Below are positions 1,378 to 12,641 of a DNA stretch of 25,032 nucleotides, in pieces. The translations under genes were made by a program, and so were the position numbers. This DNA is from a virus. Below the pieces are notes generated by a model that saw nothing but the letters and a program-made list of their open reading frames with translations, was not told where the DNA came from and did not search any database. The DNA is taken from positions 3,401 to 28,432 of the IMG/VR virus record IMGVR_UViG_3300002460_000137; one strand, given 5' to 3'. Numbering within the stretch: the stretch's first letter is position 1; each line of letters starts with the position of its first letter.

Positions 1378-3385
1378 TAATTCGCTATACAAATTAAGAG
1401 ACATCGCCAACGATGGCGATATTGCTGTTTCGAGCCGATACTCAAAAGAGGCCGAAAAGATTATCAAACCAAAAGTTAAGGGCGAGCCGAACGGCCAGCA
1501 CGAGTTTATTTTGAATCAAATTGAAACTGAATATCAGGAAGCATATACCGCATTCAAAACGAAAATAAGCAAATATCTTACCCGGTTAAAACTTTATAAT
1601 AATCAGATTAGGGCCGAAGACGCGGTGGGGTATCCGCTTATCTTCCAAAACCATCAAACAATTATCGCTTCGCTCTATTACGATCGCTTGCAGGTTGAAT
1701 TTGAGCCGCGCGAAGAAGGCGACACGCCGGTTGCCGAGAATATGAACTACTTGGCGGAGTTTGATTACGAGGAAATGTGGAAGCCATGGAACGATTATCA
1801 ATGGGATTGGGATGTGGGATTTTATGGATGGGGGCTAAAATGGTTTTACGAGTTTGATCGCAAGAGCAAAACGCCGATTCAAACAGTTGGGGACCCGGCG
1901 TCATTCCTGCGAGACCCGAGAGCAAAGAGCGTGAATGGAGACAGAATGGGAAGTGGCGCGATGAGATTCGGCGGGCTTGAAGTGTTTATGACGATGCGCG
2001 AGATGGAAGAGAATCCCGAATACTTTAATCTCGCTAAACTGCGAAAATACGGCAAAGGAGATTACAACACTCTTGCGTATGAAGCTGACAGGTCAAGGAG
2101 AACCGCACAAGGCATAGAATCGTTTAGTTCCGGTGCGGAAGGAGAAAATGAACATTACTGCGTTTTGCGATGGCTTACGCATTTGAGAATCGGCGACAAG
2201 GTAAAAAAGTGTATTGTAGAGACTGGTAATGAGAGAGGCGTTATTATCCGAATCACCCCACTTGAAACTGACTTATGGCCATTAGTAAAGCGTGATATGT
2301 ATCCTATGTCCCATTCGTGGGATGGGGTGTCTGTTTGCGACTTAACCGAAGACAAACAGCGATTCGGCGCGATGTTGGCGAATGTCTTGGCGAAAAGCGC
2401 AAGGGCGGACGTTGAGCCGATGTATCTTTTTGACAAGACGAAAGTGACTCCCCAAACCGATTTCAAGTTTGGATTCAATAAGTTTATCCCTATAAACGGC
2501 CCAGCTGGGGAAAGTGTTGTTTTCCCTTTGCGGAAAGCCCAGCCCGGAAGCCAGGCGTATCAGATACTTGCGTTTCTTGACGAATCTACACAGAGGGCAT
2601 TGGCAACTCCCGAAATCAGGCAGGGCGTTCCCTCAAAAGATCAGCGAACGCTCGGCGAGGTTCAGCTTCAATCTGCGGGAGTTGATACTCGTTATTCTTT
2701 GACTGCTCGTTTGTGGGGTATTTCGGAGAAAACCGAATGGGGATTTTGGTATAACAGTTATGAGCGGAACTTTGAAAAAGGCATAGACGAGAAAGCGTTA
2801 AGATTATCCGGCGCGTTCGGGCCGCAATGGAGGAAACTGACAAGAGAAAACATCGTGGCTAATAATCCTCAAGGATTGGATATAAAAATCGAGAGTAAAG
2901 AAGTGGCGAGCGCGAAGAAACAGAAAACTTACGCCGCGATTGGTTCTTATGTCGCGGCGATTGCTCAGGACCCGGAAGCGGATAGAAAATATGCGTTTCG
3001 TTTTCTTGGAAGGCAGATTGCTACTCGTGAACAAATAGAGCGAATATTGCCTTTAACTGCTGAAGAAATCTTGGCGAAGAAAGAGAATGAAGATTTGAAT
3101 GAAAACAAACCCGTCAAGGTTGAAATCTGGCACGACCATTCTTTACATCGCAGAATTAACGCCGAAGCGAAAGAAAGCGAAGCTAGAAAAGCACACTTGA
3201 AAGCTCACGAAGAAATGGAGATTGTAAAAAAGTTATATCCTCAATTATTCCCCCGAGTGCAGAATCCGCAAGCACAGGTGGATCAAGGGCTAGGCTCACA
3301 AGCTCCTGCAATGGCGAATCAGTTAGGCGGCAAGCGACAGCCAAATCAAAATCGTGTTCCGCAACCGAATGAATTGGGACAATGA
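1367..3385 (+). CDS. Putative phage portal protein
   Basis: A 672-residue protein placed between terminase and scaffold/capsid genes, where the portal normally lies. The portal is the dodecameric ring at one head vertex through which DNA enters and leaves. Residues about 100-210 include the aromatic stretch W-PWNDYQWDWDVGFYGWG followed by GDPASFLRDPRAKS, a pattern I associate with portals of short-tailed phages. The C-terminal 60 residues are Gln/Asn/Pro-rich and probably disordered. The start at ATG 1367 is preferred over an upstream TTG at 1298 because that extension lies wholly inside the endonuclease gene. Size (portals are often 500-750 residues) and position drive the call; sequence recognition is moderate. 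Confidence 0.7.
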   Translation: MSYSNSLYKLRDIANDGDIAVSSRYSKEAEKIIKPKVKGEPNGQHEFILNQIETEYQEAYTAFKTKISKYLTRLKLYNNQIRAEDAVGYPLIFQNHQTIIASLYYDRLQVEFEPREEGDTPVAENMNYLAEFDYEEMWKPWNDYQWDWDVGFYGWGLKWFYEFDRKSKTPIQTVGDPASFLRDPRAKSVNGDRMGSGAMRFGGLEVFMTMREMEENPEYFNLAKLRKYGKGDYNTLAYEADRSRRTAQGIESFSSGAEGENEHYCVLRWLTHLRIGDKVKKCIVETGNERGVIIRITPLETDLWPLVKRDMYPMSHSWDGVSVCDLTEDKQRFGAMLANVLAKSARADVEPMYLFDKTKVTPQTDFKFGFNKFIPINGPAGESVVFPLRKAQPGSQAYQILAFLDESTQRALATPEIRQGVPSKDQRTLGEVQLQSAGVDTRYSLTARLWGISEKTEWGFWYNSYERNFEKGIDEKALRLSGAFGPQWRKLTRENIVANNPQGLDIKIESKEVASAKKQKTYAAIGSYVAAIAQDPEADRKYAFRFLGRQIATREQIERILPLTAEEILAKKENEDLNENKPVKVEIWHDHSLHRRINAEAKESEARKAHLKAHEEMEIVKKLYPQLFPRVQNPQAQVDQGLGSQAPAMANQLGGKRQPNQNRVPQPNELGQ

Positions 3386-3705: not shown

Positions 3706-3873
3706 ATGACGGAGTTATCAAGAGAAGAAGAATATCTTTTAGAGAAATGGCGCGGATTGCCGGATTGGGCGGTGATTGAAGTGCGGAAAAGCAATGGAAA
3801 GCTGTTTGAAATTGAGGTAAGGACACTGGATCGGTTTTCATCGAAATCGGAATTGTTTGCAAATAAAACTTAA
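3706..3873 (+). CDS. Hypothetical protein, 55 residues
   Basis: A short ORF from ATG 3706 to TAA 3871-3873, six bases after the preceding stop. The product starts MTELSREEEYLLEKWRGLPDW and continues as alternating hydrophobic/charged strands (AVIEVRKSNGKLFEIEVRTLDRF), suggesting a small helix-strand-strand fold. No family is recognised. Its 3' end contains the -35 and spacer of promoter P2, so coding and regulatory signals overlap. Confidence 0.6.
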   Translation: MTELSREEEYLLEKWRGLPDWAVIEVRKSNGKLFEIEVRTLDRFSSKSELFANKT

Positions 3874-3884
3874 TATGGTATAAA
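3857..3884 (+). promoter_or_regulatory. Extended -10 promoter P2 ahead of scaffold/capsid genes
   Basis: TTGCAA (3857-3862), 16-base spacer, TGG (3876-3878) and TATAAA (3879-3884). The -35, spacer length and TGG extension are identical in form to P1. Predicted +1 is near 3891, so the transcript would run directly into the attenuator hairpins and terminator that precede the scaffold gene. Confidence 0.68.
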
Positions 3885-3890
3885 CAGAGG

Positions 3891-3971
3891 TAATTGAATC
3901 GGCGGTCTGCACCGCAAATTGGGCGTAACGGAAACAACCGAAAGCTCGCAAGTAATTTGCGGGCTTTTTTT
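3891..3971 (+). promoter_or_regulatory. Transcription attenuator with mutually exclusive hairpins
   Basis: Three competing RNA pairings are visible. Hairpin 1 pairs GCGGT (3902-3906) with ACCGC (3911-3915) around a CTGC loop. An antiterminator can pair CCGCAAATT (3912-3920) perfectly with AATTTGCGG (3954-3962), nine base pairs. The terminator pairs 3941-3951 with 3957-3967. The antiterminator shares bases with both hairpin 1 and the terminator's 3' arm, so forming hairpin 1 would favour termination. This is the layout of an attenuator or riboswitch expression platform. The ligand, protein or ribosome signal that would switch it is unknown. If termination dominates, the product would be a small RNA of about 80 bases. 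Confidence 0.6.
3941..3971 (+). terminator. Intrinsic (rho-independent) terminator
   Basis: An 11-bp stem, AAAGCTCGCAA with TTGCGGGCTTT (one G-T wobble), closes a GTAAT loop and runs into seven T residues (3965-3971). It lies about 100 bases upstream of the scaffold ATG and downstream of promoter P2, inside what would be the leader of the capsid operon. Confidence 0.85.
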
Positions 3972-4071
3972 GCGGATGATTTCTTCAAGGCAAAGCCCAC
4001 AAAGGGCTTCCTGCCAGTCGAAGGCAGAGGATGTCGGACATAATAACTCTGTAAAAGTCCGGCGCAAAAAA
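3972..4071 (+). other. Structured non-coding leader of scaffold gene
   Basis: Between the terminator and the scaffold ATG are three further short inverted repeats: AAGCCC/GGGCTT (near 3993-4009), CTGCC/GGCAG (near 4011-4026) and CGGAC/GTCCG (near 4035-4061). Two frames happen to be open through this stretch, but neither has a plausible start or composition, so I treat it as untranslated leader. It may set mRNA stability or carry a further regulatory fold. Confidence 0.45.
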
Positions 4072-4749
4072 ATGCCAGAAGAGGAAAAACCCGGCAATGC
4101 CGGAGAGGGCGATCCTCAAGCGCCTGAAAATAAAGATGGGGCTGGTGCTGACGACCAGAACAAACAGGGAGGTGGTGGGACACCGCCTAAAGATTTCGTT
4201 GTTCCCAAGCGTAACGCGGAGTATTGGGAGGCCGCACAAAAACGTCGTGAGGTAAGAGAGGCGAGAAAGCAATTTTTCACCCAAAAGCCTAAAGACGAAA
4301 GGGAAGGCGAAGACGGGAGCGGTGGCGAAGACGAGCCACTGACCCGTAAAGAGTATGAGCGGCTTCGTGAAGAAGATCGTTTGCGGTGGCAGGAAGAACA
4401 GGATGGTCGGCTGATGGCACAGAGCGATTTAGCCGCAATTCAAAACTTCCTTGTAAAACCCGAAAACGAAAAATTCAGGAAGTATGAGAAAGAAGGGTCG
4501 GCGATTCTGAAAGATCCTGTTTATTCTCACGCTGATATTCGTCTTATATTCCGTGGGCTTGCCTATGAAGACGCGCTCGCCGAGGGCGCAAAGCGTGGAG
4601 CAAAAGCCGACGATAAGTCCAAGCGAAGCTCTGCGGGAGGTTCGGGACGGACGCAAGAACCGGAAGCTTCAGGATATACTCCTGATAAGCACGCCGACTT
4701 CAAAAAGAAATTGAAAGAAGGCAAGGCATCGTTTTCGGAACCTCAATAA
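4072..4749 (+). CDS. Putative capsid scaffolding protein
   Basis: A 225-residue, highly charged, low-complexity protein directly before the major capsid gene, where scaffolding proteins that template procapsid assembly usually lie. Residues 1-35 are acidic and rich in Glu/Gly/Asn; residues 45-120 are Arg/Glu-rich and helical (EYERLREEDRLRWQEEQD); a short ordered region (LKDPVYSHADIRLIFRGLAYEDAL) follows; the C-terminus ends DFKKKLKEGKASFSEPQ and could be the coat-binding end. The ATG at 4072 is chosen over an upstream TTG at 3919, since that extension would cover the terminator and leader hairpins. No Shine-Dalgarno site is seen. Assignment rests on position and composition. Confidence 0.68.
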   Translation: MPEEEKPGNAGEGDPQAPENKDGAGADDQNKQGGGGTPPKDFVVPKRNAEYWEAAQKRREVREARKQFFTQKPKDEREGEDGSGGEDEPLTRKEYERLREEDRLRWQEEQDGRLMAQSDLAAIQNFLVKPENEKFRKYEKEGSAILKDPVYSHADIRLIFRGLAYEDALAEGAKRGAKADDKSKRSSAGGSGRTQEPEASGYTPDKHADFKKKLKEGKASFSEPQ

Positions 4750-4779: not shown

Positions 4780-5730
4780 ATGAACGTCAACACATCTAAC
4801 CAGGTTTCTGCTGGCGTAGACGCTTATTTCGCACGGGAACTTCTTGAAAGACCCTTGCCTTATTACGTTTACGCGATGTTTGCAGACCTGAAACCGCTTC
4901 AATCAAAAATGAGCGGTACGGTACGATTCCGCAGGTTCACTTCGTTGTCGCCTGCGACGACCGCTTTAACCGAGGGTGTTACGCCTGATGGCAGCTTAAT
5001 GGCGAAAACCGATACAACTGCGGCAGTTTCGCAGTATGGCGATTTTCTTTACTTGAGCGATTATCTTCGTGCGACATCCTTGGAAAACATAGTCAACGAA
5101 TCACAAGACTTGCTTTTGGATCAGATGGGGCAGACGCTGAATCGTCTTGCGCGCACCGTGCTTATTGCTGGTGATAACGTGCAATATGCTTCAACTGCCG
5201 CTAGCACTGCGACTATCGCGGCAGGAATGATCCTTAATAGCGAAGAACTCGCTGAGGCAGTCCTTACGCTCGTAAACGGCGATGCAAAGCCAATTACAAA
5301 GCAGATTAATCCTGGATCGGGATTCAACTCGTCTCCTGTTCCGATGGCATTCGTATTGTTCGCTTCTCCGGCGACGGTTCGTGATCTTTCCAAAGATTCG
5401 AATTGGATCGGAGTTGCGGAATACGGATCGCAGGAAAAGTTGGGACCGTGGGAAGTGGGAACGATTCTTGCCGCGGGTTACGCGGTCCGTGTAATCACGA
5501 CCGGATCGGACGCTTCAACGGAATCTTCAACTGTTACTGTCCATAAGTCAGTTCTCATCGGGCAATATGCGTATGCGATGGTGGAAATCGATGAACTTTC
5601 GGTCGAGATGATCCACCAACCCGCGACCGATCCTCTGAAACAGAGAGAATCGTTCGGCTGGAAACTTGCAACGGTATTTAAGCGTCAAGCCGAATACGCG
5701 ATTGTGAGAATCGAGCACGCGGTATCTTAA
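4780..5730 (+). CDS. Major capsid protein, N4-gp56 family
   Basis: A 316-residue protein with the signature order of the N4-gp56 capsid family: an N-terminal YFARELLERPLP helix, an E-loop/spine region GTVRFRRFTSLSP then LTEGVTPDG, AAVSQYGDFLYLSDYL, a long helix DQMGQTLNRLARTVLIAGDN, the mid-protein FASPATVRDL, and the C-terminal DPLKQRESFGWKLATVFKRQ. It would assemble the HK97-fold shell. Its length is shorter than N4 gp56 itself (about 400 residues) but within what smaller relatives show. The gene lies 30 bases after the scaffold-like gene and has only an A-rich sequence before its ATG, despite being expected to be strongly expressed. The call is confident. Confidence 0.85.
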   Translation: MNVNTSNQVSAGVDAYFARELLERPLPYYVYAMFADLKPLQSKMSGTVRFRRFTSLSPATTALTEGVTPDGSLMAKTDTTAAVSQYGDFLYLSDYLRATSLENIVNESQDLLLDQMGQTLNRLARTVLIAGDNVQYASTAASTATIAAGMILNSEELAEAVLTLVNGDAKPITKQINPGSGFNSSPVPMAFVLFASPATVRDLSKDSNWIGVAEYGSQEKLGPWEVGTILAAGYAVRVITTGSDASTESSTVTVHKSVLIGQYAYAMVEIDELSVEMIHQPATDPLKQRESFGWKLATVFKRQAEYAIVRIEHAVS

Positions 5731-12623: not shown

Positions 12624-12626
12624 AAA

Positions 12627-12641
12627 TGGTATAATTATACA
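12627..12641 (+). promoter_or_regulatory. Extended -10 promoter P3, leaderless
   Basis: TGG (12627-12629) plus TATAAT (12630-12635) lies seven bases before the ATG at 12642, so +1 should fall on the start codon itself. No good -35 box is seen at the usual distance (a TTGGGC at 12603 is 21 bases away). The promoter separates the tailspike gene from the block of large putative ejection proteins. Confidence 0.68.

Follow-up and report, generated by a model that had tools for sequence, protein, structure and literature searches.

The window analyzed here is a 25,032-nucleotide stretch of a 28.4-kb virus record, and it carries, in order, the end of a terminase gene, a promoter-like site (220-248), an HNH gene, a portal gene of the SU10 type (Pfam E 4e-10), two small genes, a leader region, a scaffold-like gene, and the major capsid gene. 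The HNH endonuclease between terminase and portal (622-1377) has NUMOD3 motifs and is a probable homing endonuclease. The whole leader element falls within the intergenic gap at 3874-4071, ahead of the scaffold-like and capsid genes, as the preliminary description had it. We infer the identity of the scaffold gene and its ATG from its position and from the genes at the scaffold position in relatives, whose similarity is weak (best 4e-6). The segment between the terminator and this ATG (3972-4071) folds well (z about -2.5) into three GC-rich stems; no relative of it was found, and it could not be aligned convincingly with the structured leaders that sister phages have before scaffold.

The leader begins with a sigma70-type promoter and continues into an intrinsic terminator (Table 1), both present where the preliminary description placed them, with a predicted transcription start near 3891. 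The window has just two copies of TATGGTATAA, at 238 and 3874, each in an intergenic position, and its one-mismatch pattern is observed 5 times against 0.95 expected. Promoters of the form TGGTATAAT at 238-248 and 12625-12635 lie about 7 to 8 nt before an ATG, which suggests that leaderless mRNAs occur in this phage. The terminator hairpin (-14.7 kcal/mol; ensemble probability 0.9996) was missed by a consensus terminator scan and recovered by a custom scan, and the RNA at 3885-3975 as a whole is only modestly more stable than its shuffles (z = -1.6). There is no ATG between the predicted start and the terminator in the window, and a TTG frame from 3894 continues through the terminator; the window leader does not have the translated leader peptide before the terminator that marks trp-type attenuators. 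The GCGGT-CTGC-ACCGC hairpin proposed earlier is present too, within an insertion specific to the window phage, and the leaders of relatives have no room for it.

Table 1. Positions of leader features and adjoining head genes in the window
Feature	Position	Strand	Basis or remark
Sigma70-type promoter, extended -10	3856-3884	+	TTTGCA 3856-3861, 17-nt spacer, TATAAA 3879-3884, TG 3876-3877
Extra hairpin GCGGU-CUGC-ACCGC	3902-3915	+	Folding; peculiar to window phage
Whole element by covariance model R1	3919-3971	+	23.5 bits, E 3.1e-4 (E-values of the tool are rough)
Candidate antiterminator, 5' strand UGGGC	3920-3924	+	Helix covaries in relatives
Mini-hairpin CGG-AAACAA-CCG	3929-3940	+	NNG-AAAAA-CNN in relatives
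Terminator hairpin, 11 pairs	3941-3967	+	Stem 3941-3951:3957-3967, loop 3952-3956; directly after mini-hairpin
Candidate antiterminator, 3' strand GCUCG	3944-3948	+	Also part of terminator 5' arm
U-run of intrinsic terminator	3965-3971	+	Sequence
Possible outer stem, 3' strand	3970-3974	+	Pairs with 3924-3928; only in read-through RNA; weak in window
Scaffold-like gene	4072-4749	+	First behind putative attenuator; start predicted
Major capsid protein gene	4780-5730	+	phrog_1357, E 2e-43

Direct searches of viral contigs with the window leader, capsid, portal, and scaffold gave no match. An alignment of distant capsid proteins yielded 80 loci, and a second alignment built from the leader-bearing capsids yielded 80 more; the loci were thus chosen by capsid protein and not by RNA. 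Immediately ahead of the capsid gene, several first-round loci resemble the window in having a promoter, CGGAAAAACCG, a hairpin rich in GC, and a U-run. Where upstream DNA is present and the capsid shares 61% or more identity with that of locus L031, the order promoter, mini-hairpin, terminator, capsid ATG is kept in essentially all loci, and the element is absent from L166 (60.7% to L031) and from more distant loci, with a weaker version in L165 (59.9%). About 55 uncultured relatives share this arrangement, in which a sigma70-type promoter, mini-hairpin, and terminator immediately precede the major capsid gene. Terminase relatives were set aside as a source of homologous leaders, having other head genes there, and hairpins with T-runs upstream of scaffold genes in ten distant relatives apparently lie within coding genes and are not leaders. 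A bacterial genome collection contained no capsid relatives, and scanning bacterial genomes for the motif produced 50 matches, scattered in taxonomy and probably mostly chance, with one clear exception (L244, below).

The mini-hairpin of the relatives is 11 nt long with three pairs, and its loop is AAAAA in 44 of 49; in almost every relative it abuts the terminator stem without a gap, and 4 to 8 U's follow, often near the capsid ATG. Mini-hairpin, terminator stem, and U-run are contiguous in the window as well. Pairing in the mini-hairpin is 100%, with 20 double-change cells (0/500 shuffles) and double compensatory changes at all three pairs; the training-set hairpins were selected by complementarity, such that the complete pairing is partly built in, which does not hold for the diversity of compensating pairs. 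Covariation is seen in the terminator stem too, with double changes at 7/7 modeled pairs in an alignment that had been fitted to the model. Base pairing between the loop A's and the U-run was also considered, but loops like AUAUA would disrupt it and the idea was abandoned. Upstream, 50 of 51 leaders have a promoter score of at least 9 (27% of shuffled sequences do), at a narrow distance to the terminator. The -10 box lies a median of 19 nt from the mini-hairpin in relatives (13 to 29 nt at 5 to 95%) versus 44 nt in the window, because of the hairpin inserted in the window leader. We regard a promoter upstream of the mini-hairpin as a usual feature of the family and do not count it as essential.

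When leaders are folded only up to the terminator loop, a second helix recurs between the 5' flank of the mini-hairpin and the start of the terminator 5' arm. In the window this candidate antiterminator (3920-3924 with 3944-3948) encloses the mini-hairpin, contains two G-U pairs, and has a predicted energy of -7.6 kcal/mol with the mini-hairpin included. With geometry restricted, the helix is found in 48 of 51 leaders versus 22.3 ± 3.0 with swapped partners, and among non-redundant leaders in 26 of 27 versus 11.8 expected (0/5000 swaps), although the swap controls leave some shared ancestry in. There are 34 distinct antiterminator helices among the leaders, and two single-register sets show 27 and 24 double-change cells, totals that count the three mini-hairpin pairs and come from sequences sorted by register beforehand; slid controls fail. 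No excess pairing of the mini-hairpin 5' flank with the terminator 3' arm is seen. Antiterminator and terminator are mutually exclusive because they use the same 5' arm bases. Of the two, the terminator has the greater computed stability in each of 50 leaders (mean -14.3 versus -4.2 kcal/mol); the predicted default state is therefore off, and something would have to stabilize the antiterminator. The covariation check on related leaders thus yielded compensatory changes in mini-hairpin, terminator stem, and antiterminator helix, and these uphold the original idea of an attenuator built from mutually exclusive stems, but the segments first named for it are not the conserved ones.

We built a covariance model (R1) from 20 leaders of one register because MAFFT lost the register of the terminator stem; all 20 are relatives, with the window left out. 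At E ≤ 1 the window element is its sole match in the 28.4-kb record, and on 709 kb of other loci it has a single match, L035 (17.3 bits), which is probably a member. The window is a divergent member, with a six-base loop, two antiterminator G-U pairs, and 25 additional leader bases, and its element stands before the scaffold gene, whereas those of relatives are directly before capsid. An Rfam search returned no family at the gathering threshold, in agreement with the early view that no known riboswitch class matches, and the matches below threshold are weak ones that rest on the terminator. Judged from sequence comparison, this is a new family of putative attenuators of a known general kind.

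We consider it likely that the window leader acts as a transcription attenuator before the head genes, and such a switch would probably set the timing or amount of capsid production. RNA polymerase would transcribe the antiterminator first. Unaided, the more stable terminator would then replace it, and transcription would end near 3971 to give an RNA of about 80 nt. A factor binding the antiterminator, with its conserved A-rich loop and A-rich internal loop, would hold the 5' arm and block the terminator, and polymerase would continue into the scaffold and capsid genes. As a first guess the factor would be a phage late RNA-binding protein, which we rank ahead of a host protein or a small molecule. 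A passive, partial terminator would give the same picture. A 65- to 79-aa protein was considered as the regulator and set aside: eight of nine element-bearing phages encode it, as against none of the four that lack the element (G001-G008, e.g., G007:C1:36357-36554), but neither Pfam nor PHROG gave a convincing match and its presence split follows phylogeny. To the eye, the 55-aa gene just upstream of the window element (3706-3873) has a vague resemblance to this protein, but it gave no match to a profile.

In relatives, complete copies of the element are also found ahead of an adaptor-like gene and of other genes that are probably late. The L244 contig, which is binned as Candidatus Levyibacteriota (Patescibacteria), has it before a terminase small subunit gene, and this one metagenomic bin hints at the host. 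Copies of the mini-hairpin that lack a terminator follow promoters ahead of scaffold genes, and a few lie within the first codons. In most of 36 listed cases promoter and mini-hairpin lie directly before a gene ATG, usually that of scaffold, and a helix of scored strength extends towards the start codon in 26 of the 36. A single phage factor, possibly scaffold or capsid protein itself, might read the hairpin twice, turning on transcription through the capsid leader and blocking scaffold translation at the start codon; we hold this to be doubtful, and if true a single signal would balance scaffold against capsid. The scaffold-start copy of the mini-hairpin is absent from the window.

These sites indicate that the mini-hairpin tracks the promoter more than the start codon, which leaves room for a polymerase-modifying role. 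Under processive antitermination in the style of lambda PR'-tR'/Q or HK022 put, the mini-hairpin would modify RNA polymerase and the leader terminator would be only the gate. The position of the mini-hairpin about 19 nt past the -10 box, even without a terminator and sometimes inside the first codons, fits this, and a late promoter followed immediately by a terminator ahead of structural genes is the lambdoid arrangement (PMC6606751), an order that the window shares. Likewise, put is a structured RNA near a phage promoter that relieves termination, with putL just downstream of PL (PMC9378689). However, Q, which acts via sites in the DNA, does not depend on pairing of an antiterminator RNA, and put RNA measures about 70 nt, has two long stems, and acts on distant terminators, whereas here an 11-nt hairpin lies beside its own terminator. 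Processive antitermination also has no need of a covarying helix with the terminator 5' arm, and we regard it as unlikely.

Less likely still is a 5' leader that stabilizes an abundant mRNA or aids its translation, with a hairpin and U-run that have no role in regulated termination. The outer stem over the U-run is enriched in relatives (0/500), strong in one subclade, and possible only in read-through RNA, all of which would suit such a leader, as would the frequent proximity of the U-run to the capsid ATG. It would not account for retention of the U-run immediately behind the stem, nor for retention of an antiterminator helix able to unfold the terminator stem. It is very improbable that the terminator merely ends portal-gene transcription and that the promoter match is chance; terminators are common between gene blocks and the window -35 box is poor, but promoter-like sequence recurs upstream at the frequency and narrow distance given above. 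Equally improbable is the capture first proposed, in which CCGCAAATT (3912-3920), governed by the hairpin at 3902-3915, would take the terminator 3' arm: the segment occurs once in the window and is an exact nine-base complement of 3954-3962 (chance about 4e-4 versus shuffled leader, post hoc), but as an antiterminator this pairing has an ensemble probability of 1.6e-4 and is present in 0 of 50 relatives, which have at most five matching bases at the site.

We note two other conserved leader types in this group. Sister phages (L044 at 3055-3226, L050, L054, L056, and L039) have a different, strongly conserved 160-nt pre-scaffold region, ACTCGCAAAGGGAAG...GGGGTTGGCGACGCTCC...CCCTGCGAGTCCGTGTCGGACTC, that looks like another structured leader. 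A third conserved scaffold leader type, TAATCC...GGTNTCGCC...GTGAG, has inverted pairs and is present in L027 (2667-2766), L043 (1693-1785), L038 (3215-3309), and L032.

If functional, the element described here would be a compact RNA switch of about 50 nt by which a widespread group of uncultured phages controls head production. It would provide a small part for synthetic biology, and would imply an RNA-binding factor that awaits discovery and is open to direct search.

Bacterial metabolic operons offer well-known examples of attenuators with a covarying antiterminator, and we found no earlier report of one before phage capsid genes in the open-access literature. The RAT sites of BglG, SacY, and LicT are short hairpins with an internal loop that overlap the terminator 5' arm, and the antiterminator predicted here is likewise a short hairpin with an internal loop over the terminator 5' arm. 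The phage leader differs in having no Rfam match, and no CAT_RBD domain was found in ten phage records (the control was positive), a search that covered phage-encoded proteins. A search of ten phage records for an ANTAR domain also found none, and the control genomes gave no match either. In the ANTAR (EutV) system a small hairpin overlaps the terminator stem, the two being mutually exclusive, and bound protein holds the hairpin to allow read-through (PMC8934654). The phage leader is similar in that its small-hairpin structure is exclusive with the terminator stem, but ANTAR targets have two six-base loops with A1 and G4, whereas the phage leaders have one hairpin with an AAAAA loop (44/49; AAACAA in the window) and no G4.
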